Below, piece after piece: positions 50,276-51,394 of a stretch of 64,000 bases of DNA (position 1 is the stretch's first letter; each line of letters opens with the position of its first letter). This DNA comes from Golubevia sp. BC0850. Taxonomy: Eukaryota; Basidiomycota; Exobasidiomycetes; Golubeviales; Golubeviaceae. Position numbers and translations under genes: made by a program. The notes beneath the pieces are model-generated. The model saw only the letters and a list, made by a program, of their open reading frames with translations. It was not told the DNA's origin and did not search any database. The stretch spans positions 2,046,001 to 2,110,000 of the forward strand of contig JAAVVG010000001.1 of assembly GCA_012976225.1 (NCBI GenBank), in the 5' to 3' direction.

Positions 50276-51394
50276 AGTAAGTTTCTTCGACCTTCCGTGG
50301 GAGTTCACAATGTTTCAGCATTGCCACTTAAACTTACGCCCGATTCCTCTCGTCTGCTCTCCTCTCCCCTCTTCAGTGCAAATCTTCGTCAAAACTCTAA
50401 CTGGAAAGACCATCACCTTAGAAGTTGAATCCGGAGATACCATTGATAATGGTTAGTCTACAGTGTTGATTGCTCAGCTTGACACCTCCCCTCCATTCCC
50501 TTTCTCTCTACTTACCAACCCTCTCTTCCCACTTCTCTCTCATTCAGTCAAAGCCAAAATCCAAGACAAGGAAGGTATTCCACCTGACCAGCAAAGACTT
50601 ATCTTCGCTGGAAAGCAACTTGAAGATGGTAGAACTCTTTCAGATTACAACATTCAAAAGGAATCCACCTTACACTTAGTCCTACGTCTTAGAGGAGGAA
50701 TGCAAATCTTTGTGAAGACTTTGACTGGTAAGACGATTACTTTGGAAGTGGAGAGTGGAGATACTATCGATAATGGTGAGTTCTTGAGCGTTGAAAGGTC
50801 GGAGGGGGGCTGAGTTTGGTTGAGAGATAAGGAAACATGAATGGGTTTGGAGGGGGACTCGTGGCAGCGGAGGCTCACCATTCTCTAGTGAATCTATTGA
50901 ATTGAATCACAAGGTGTTAGAGTCACGCTGCAGATGAAGTTGTCAACAGCCAATCGACTCCGATTGCTAATCACCCAACATCACCTCCCTTGCCCCCCCC
51001 CCCTTCTTCAGTCAAAGCCAAGATCCAAGACAAGGAAGGTATTCCACCTGATCAACAAAGATTAATCTTCGCCGGAAAACAATTAGAAGACGGACGAACT
51101 TTATCAGATTACAACATTCAAAAAGAATCCACCTTACATCTAGTCCTCCGTCTCCGTGGTGGAGCCAAGAAACGTTGTCAAGAAGGTTTAGAAACTGAGA
51201 ACAGATGTAGAGATGCAGCCATGCAAATCGCTGGTGCTTGTTCTGCTTGTTCTTTAGTCTTTTGTTCAAAACATAGATTGCCGGAAACTCATAAATGCAA
51301 GAATCAAGATGCTTTGAGATCTGCTGCTTTTGCTGCTAACAAAGCTAAATTGGAAAGTGAAAGAACTTCTGCTTCAAGAGGTTTAGCTCATTAA
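50276..51394 (+). CDS. Ubiquitin-ubiquitin-AN1 zinc-finger fusion
   Basis: A natural polyubiquitin fusion: two complete 76-residue ubiquitins in tandem, each ending LRLRGG, followed by a 76-residue AN1-type zinc-finger protein. Deubiquitinases should release two ubiquitins and the finger protein, which begins AKKRC. Coding exons are the single base A at 50276, then 50377-50451, 50548-50775 and 51012-51394. The initiator ATG is therefore split A|TG by an intron with donor GTAAGT (50277-50282). Both ubiquitins are interrupted at the same place (after Asn25, phase 1) by introns of 96 and 236 nt, and both have Gly20 where yeast and human have Ser20. The AN1 part has ligands in C-x9-C-x10-C-x2-C-x4-C-x2-H-x5-H-x-C spacing ([20 protein letters not shown]), the first pair being farther apart than usual. 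AN1 proteins link proteotoxic stress to the proteasome. Confidence 0.93.

Follow-up and report, generated by a model that had tools for sequence, protein, structure and literature searches.

The gene found at 50276-51394 in Golubevia sp. BC0850 raises the question of why a small AN1 zinc-finger protein should be encoded behind two copies of ubiquitin, and whether this arrangement is particular to the organism or shared with others. The window, that is, the whole stretch of 64,000 nucleotides analysed here, corresponds to C11:2046001-2110000 in a genome of 25.8 Mb assembled into 64 contigs. When the genomic DNA is joined in silico, four exons on the forward strand yield a single open frame (228 codons and a stop), interrupted by three introns that are predicted from the sequence and all show GT...AG borders (Table 1). 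The start at 50276 given in the earlier note is explained by intron 1, because this intron splits the start codon (A/TG). The protein starts with two ubiquitins of the same sequence (residues 1-76 and 77-152), each closing with LRLRGG, and residues 153-228 form the tail, AKKRCQ...RGLAH. The reading of two full ubiquitin repeats with LRLRGG, followed by a 76-residue AN1 tail, is confirmed by this gene model and by a Pfam search with the whole protein, which returned ubiquitin (215.4 bits, two stretches) and zf-AN1 (40.6 bits).

Table 1. Exons and introns of the ubiquitin-AN1 gene, in window positions; coding join A(50276) + 50377-50451 + 50548-50775 + 51012-51394.
Feature	Positions	Strand	Sequence or basis
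Exon 1, last base = A of split start codon	50276..50276	+	A/gtaagt ... cttcag/TGCAAATC
Intron 1, 100 nt, within start codon A/TG	50277..50376	+	GTAAGT...TTCAG, predicted
Exon 2, ubiquitin 1 to first base of codon V26	50377..50451	+	open frame
Intron 2, 96 nt, in ubiquitin 1 codon V26	50452..50547	+	predicted
Exon 3a, remainder of ubiquitin 1, LRLRGG end	50548..50699	+	open frame, Pfam ubiquitin
Exon 3b, ubiquitin 2 start, to codon V26	50700..50775	+	open frame
Intron 3, 236 nt, in ubiquitin 2 codon V26, same position as intron 2	50776..51011	+	predicted
Exon 4a, remainder of ubiquitin 2, LRLRGG end, predicted cut after GG	51012..51163	+	open frame, Pfam
Exon 4b, 76-residue AN1 tail and TAA stop	51164..51394	+	zf-AN1 43 bits; single copy in the genome

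At the nucleotide level, the two ubiquitin repeats differ at 39 of 228 positions, distributed over 32 of 76 codons, and all these differences are silent, without a single amino-acid change. Since the repeats differ only silently, both are under strong selection as true ubiquitin, and they read as neither a chance resemblance nor a recent copy. The encoded ubiquitin is identical to that of the relative P0007 over 76/76 residues. Residue 20 is Gly (VESGDTIDN) in the ubiquitins of the window gene and of the polyubiquitin, eL40 and eS31 genes; it is Ser in most of the relatives read, and Gly in P0007.

The tail on its own is recognised by Pfam as zf-AN1 with 43.0 bits (cut-off 27.9) and contains all eight Cys6His2 zinc ligands (C5, C15, C26, C29, C34, H37, H43 and C45), which are invariant across 11 aligned AN1 tails (alignment A1), the window's included. 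The finger directly follows the GG, both lying inside one open exon (51012-51394). The gap between the first two cysteines spans nine residues and is thus wider than the C-x4-C of the Guillardia protein P0117. A sequence search of the PDB with the tail yielded nothing beyond weak AN1 hits (best E 0.0011), and a scan of NCBIfam nothing but matches far under the cut-offs.

Genome-wide, the AN1 tail has one full match; no further copy was detected, the next match having an E value of 0.05. Two other AN1 exons, on C2 and C15, were considered as tail copies and rejected, as they proved on reading to belong to different proteins. The tail is neither eL40 nor eS31 but a zf-AN1 domain, and the ribosomal tails are found elsewhere in the genome: a ubiquitin-eL40 gene on C62 (tail Ribosomal_L40e, 24.0 bits in Pfam) and a ubiquitin-eS31 gene on C11 (tail Ribosomal_S27, 83.4 bits). 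In these two genes (L002 and L003, both near 1497), exon 1 likewise seems to end within the start codon, behind its first two bases, AT. A polyubiquitin gene on C33 comprises four repeats and a final N, with introns near Q62 in repeats 1-3, and a gene for a UCH-type ubiquitin C-terminal hydrolase is present as well. Contig C22 holds 13 of the 30 ubiquitin-family matches of the genome, including L007, L016 (829000-833500), L017 (915500-920500) and L018 (757000-760500); the copies read have diverged and close with, e.g., LRLRGCACGQ or RTRECPYGQ instead of LRLRGG, and are best described from these features as ubiquitin-like genes or pseudogenes that have expanded locally. Around the window gene, six neighbouring frames were searched with Pfam, and nothing related to ubiquitin was found in them save one F-box-like match that stays under the threshold (16.7 bits against a cut-off of 24.3); it lies in the open frame at 48890-49726 (minus), immediately upstream on the opposite strand.

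That the polyubiquitin gene was the source of the second repeat is not favoured, as the introns of that gene lie near Q62, whereas both window repeats are interrupted at V26. Because the V26 intron is common to both repeats and absent from polyubiquitin, the second ubiquitin probably arose through internal duplication within the fusion gene. The ubiquitin of the eL40 and eS31 genes, unlike that of the fusion gene, also has no V26 intron. In the Violaceomyces record (P0003), at the place of intron 3 of the window gene, and in another relative, P0001, extra residues resembling translated introns occur at V26, and the V26 intron is therefore probably old.

Relatives were collected from three tail searches, namely two with single tails, in which 7/16 and 14/15 candidates passed, and one with an 11-tail profile, in which 150 passed among 7993 scored and 120 of the 150 were listed. 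The resulting 121 listed proteins were sorted by script according to their leader. Seven of them carry two ubiquitin cores (8/122 with the window), and 18 carry one, some of the latter being incomplete or misannotated and P0008 possibly representing a broken double. Another 25/121 have a leader of at least 60 residues that ends in GG and contains no exact ubiquitin core, P0101 being a false member of this class; five of the 25 (P0004, P0005, P0069, P0112 and P0114) are nevertheless labelled as ubiquitin in precomputed Pfam annotation. The remaining 71/121 have no leader or a mere fragment of one, among them P0012, P0018 and P0037, which begin with a leader end. The doubles named among the matches listed are from Ustilago (P0006), Violaceomyces (P0003), Jaminaea (P0014) and Parajaminaea (P0021), and share both the domain order and the GG/AKKRC junction of the window gene; the two repeats are identical to each other in five of the six doubles compared (P0006, P0014, P0021, P0022, P0103 and P0105; P0003 was left out). 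Violaceomyces and Jaminaea represent two different classes of Ustilaginomycotina. The named singles among these matches come from Malassezia (P0017 and P0016, the record of the latter being without its first part), Tilletia (P0019), the cryptophyte Guillardia theta (P0117) and the EukProt entry Opistho-2 (P0108). Whereas the window gene has two ubiquitins, these have one, true or near-true, with LRLRGG directly before the homologous tail. Over its full length, the window tail is 54-69% identical to those of the named Ustilaginomycotina fusions and 83% identical to that of P0012, while identity to the tails of Guillardia P0117 and of P0108 is limited to 47-48% and covers a part of their length.

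Single and double ubiquitin-AN1 fusions are thus established in the clade and extend outside fungi. With this result falls the novelty of the double fusion, which the earlier note had itself made dependent on the absence of such fusions from the clade. That note had also named a diverged ubiquitin as the rule in ubiquitin-like-AN1 fusions; this does not apply to these fungi and to Guillardia, where sequence comparison points to true or near-true ubiquitin. Fusions of this kind are already in public databases, where the 228-residue Ustilago protein is named ‘Probable polyubiquitin’ and the Guillardia protein ‘zink finger-like fusion protein’. No title or abstract on a true ubiquitin-AN1 fusion was found in the open-licence literature of PubMed Central, a faint hint that they may be undescribed.

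A tree of the tails was built from 64 rows (63 hand-chosen from the 121 listed proteins, plus the window) and 83 columns. It places the window tail among 27 rows that form a starred set (95/82) and include Malassezia, Ustilago, Tilletia and Jaminaea, the nearest row being the fragment P0012 (83%). Judged from this one short protein, the organism probably belongs to Ustilaginomycotina. On this tree, the two-ubiquitin state needs eight changes, at least four of which are forced by starred branches. Thus, the ubiquitin copy number before the AN1 tail is labile; since the tree is unrooted and contains many open forks with unsettled bootstrap, the gains and losses cannot be put in order.

The leaders without an exact ubiquitin core are informative in another respect. 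In an alignment of rust proteins (A3; 15 rows picked by eye for length and likeness to the rust matches, some after viewing the sequence), Pfam recognised ubiquitin in none of the 15 leaders, yet RxRGG is found at the junction in all 15. Mean pairwise identity in A3 amounts to 95% for the last five leader residues, 60% for the rest of the leader and 90% for the tail. In a per-position table of the leaders, the entries for G75 and G76 are circular, since a GG pattern had been used to pick the leaders. In a recount based only on tail score, which covered the 119 of the 121 listed proteins whose tail core could be recognised and left out P0015 and P0104, RxRGG is kept in 16 of the 18 proteins nearest to a rust tail; the two exceptions, P0101 and P0102, are Naganishia proteins without such a leader. 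A second group of decayed leaders has LRLRGG in 4/4, also when the rows are chosen by tail score. Structure prediction gives a ubiquitin fold for the rust and second-group leaders (block pLDDT 68-84 and 85-92), and the best Foldseek matches of both are ubiquitins (target TM 0.65 and 0.86); the AN1 half of the models was of low confidence and left unused. In the leader of P0023, Pfam scored ubiquitin at 15.2 bits, below the cut-off of 25.4, and a profile comparison of A3 with A4 aligned chiefly the tails and carries little information on the leaders. The rust leader is accordingly a predicted decayed, ubiquitin-like fold in which the cut motif is kept.

At the far end of this series, the mushrooms have standalone small AN1 proteins with a homologous finger and a C-terminal KLESERT segment and without a ubiquitin leader. 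Among the 71 leaderless listed proteins, 45 measure 74-78 residues and start with M..KKRCQ (MPAKKRCQ or similar), i.e., at the predicted cut. The name ‘AN1-type zinc finger protein TMC1’ is given to one standalone relative, P0031 from Psilocybe. The 120 of 150 profile matches listed include no yeast Tmc1, so that the tie to TMC1 is the annotation of P0031. In a review (PMC10616229), yeast Tmc1 is described as arsenite-inducible and proteasome-associated and is classed as an AIRAP orthologue. Another paper (PMC5035049) defines the subfamily of Cuz1, AIRAP and ZFAND1 by the LDFLP motif, and describes Tmc1 as being without this motif, which AIRAP shares. No LDFLP is present in the window tail after the first cysteine pair, which argues against placing it in that subfamily. 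Given the name of P0031 and the review of yeast Tmc1, a proteasomal role of the finger under proteotoxic stress is plausible by analogy.

The window gene is probably, therefore, one member of an existing ubiquitin-AN1 family, whose precursor would be cut and whose leader would be a removable aid to the folding or expression of its passenger. Deubiquitinases, which cut after GG in the ribosomal ubiquitin fusions and polyubiquitin, would act behind both LRLRGG motifs while the chain is being made or immediately afterwards, so that two ubiquitins are set free along with a 76-residue AN1 protein beginning AKKRCQ. This protein would be the counterpart of the mushroom standalone proteins and, like yeast Tmc1, might act at the proteasome under proteotoxic stress. 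A likeness to the ribosomal ubiquitin fusions is plausible; these too have a ubiquitin leader on a small zinc-binding protein, and the window tail is non-ribosomal. The cut motif kept in decayed leaders and the start site of the standalone proteins both suggest that the free AN1 protein is the relevant product; the additional ubiquitin probably contributes little to the supply or is a by-product, because polyubiquitin, with its four repeats, and both ribosomal fusions are encoded in the genome as well.

The earlier note had seen the purpose of the fusion in a stoichiometric coupling, two ubiquitins being made for each AN1 protein so that a stress factor is tied to ubiquitin supply. Although both window ubiquitins are true, unchanged and under strong purifying selection, so that released ubiquitin should be usable, and although doubles recur in several genera, mostly with identical repeats, we consider this rather improbable. 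The claim of a fixed 1:2 ratio is weakened because two, one, decayed or no ubiquitins precede one homologous tail, and this number varies on the tail tree while the tail, and the cleavage motif in most leaders, persist. Proteins with a decayed leader or none at all offer no such supply, and a fixed 1:2 supply is unlikely as the conserved function. Moreover, given the other ubiquitin genes of the genome, the ubiquitin-AN1 gene need not matter for supply.

The precursor might also stay at least partly uncut, as a linear di-ubiquitin with a zinc finger serving, e.g., as a shuttle or decoy for linear-chain readers or the proteasome. The ubiquitins are indeed joined head to tail as in a linear chain, and AN1 proteins that keep a ubiquitin-like domain do exist, such as P0109, with its weak ubiquitin-like leader without GG, and yeast Cuz1, whose ubiquitin-like domain is C-terminal according to the paper mentioned above (PMC5035049). 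However, both junctions of the window gene have an intact LRLRGG, the cut motif is retained in decayed leaders and 45/71 leaderless listed relatives begin at the cut site, which leaves this reading with a slim chance. That gene prediction or assembly merged a polyubiquitin gene with an adjacent AN1 gene is hardly credible: the database name of the Ustilago relative could be taken in this sense, but suggests that the tail is overlooked in names, while the GG/AKKRC junction lies inside one open genomic exon and junctions of this kind are found in many other sequences. An artefactual coding junction is thereby refuted, and an artefact or pseudogene is rejected in view of the one open frame and the exclusively silent repeat differences.

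Set against this removable leader, some known systems help to place the family. Xenopus An1 and human ZFAND4, for which PMC5035049 cites Linnen 1993, each unite an AN1 finger with a ubiquitin-like part, but their ubiquitin-like domain is diverged and the protein longer; the divergence named in the earlier note may hold for these. FUBI, which precedes eS30, is a decayed ubiquitin leader that keeps fold and cut site. The chances appear even that the small AN1 protein is a third widespread eukaryotic ubiquitin-tail gene beside eL40 and eS31, with its leader, in several fungal lineages, a fossil that like FUBI retains fold and cut site (RLRGG), and absent in mushrooms; such a reading would span a cryptophyte, fungi and a unicellular opisthokont, if this is what the EukProt label Opistho-2 means. 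If it is true, rust fungi carry a hidden ubiquitin-derived leader that is invisible to sequence profiles. The smut record named ‘polyubiquitin’ shows that such a name can conceal an AN1 protein. The window gene itself is ordinary for its clade. One tail preceded by two, one, decayed or no ubiquitin constitutes a natural experiment, free of the ribosome, on the effect of the leader, as the series separates ubiquitin supply, for which true ubiquitin is needed, from cleavage and an aid to folding, for which fold and cut site are needed; between these, the data lean towards the latter.
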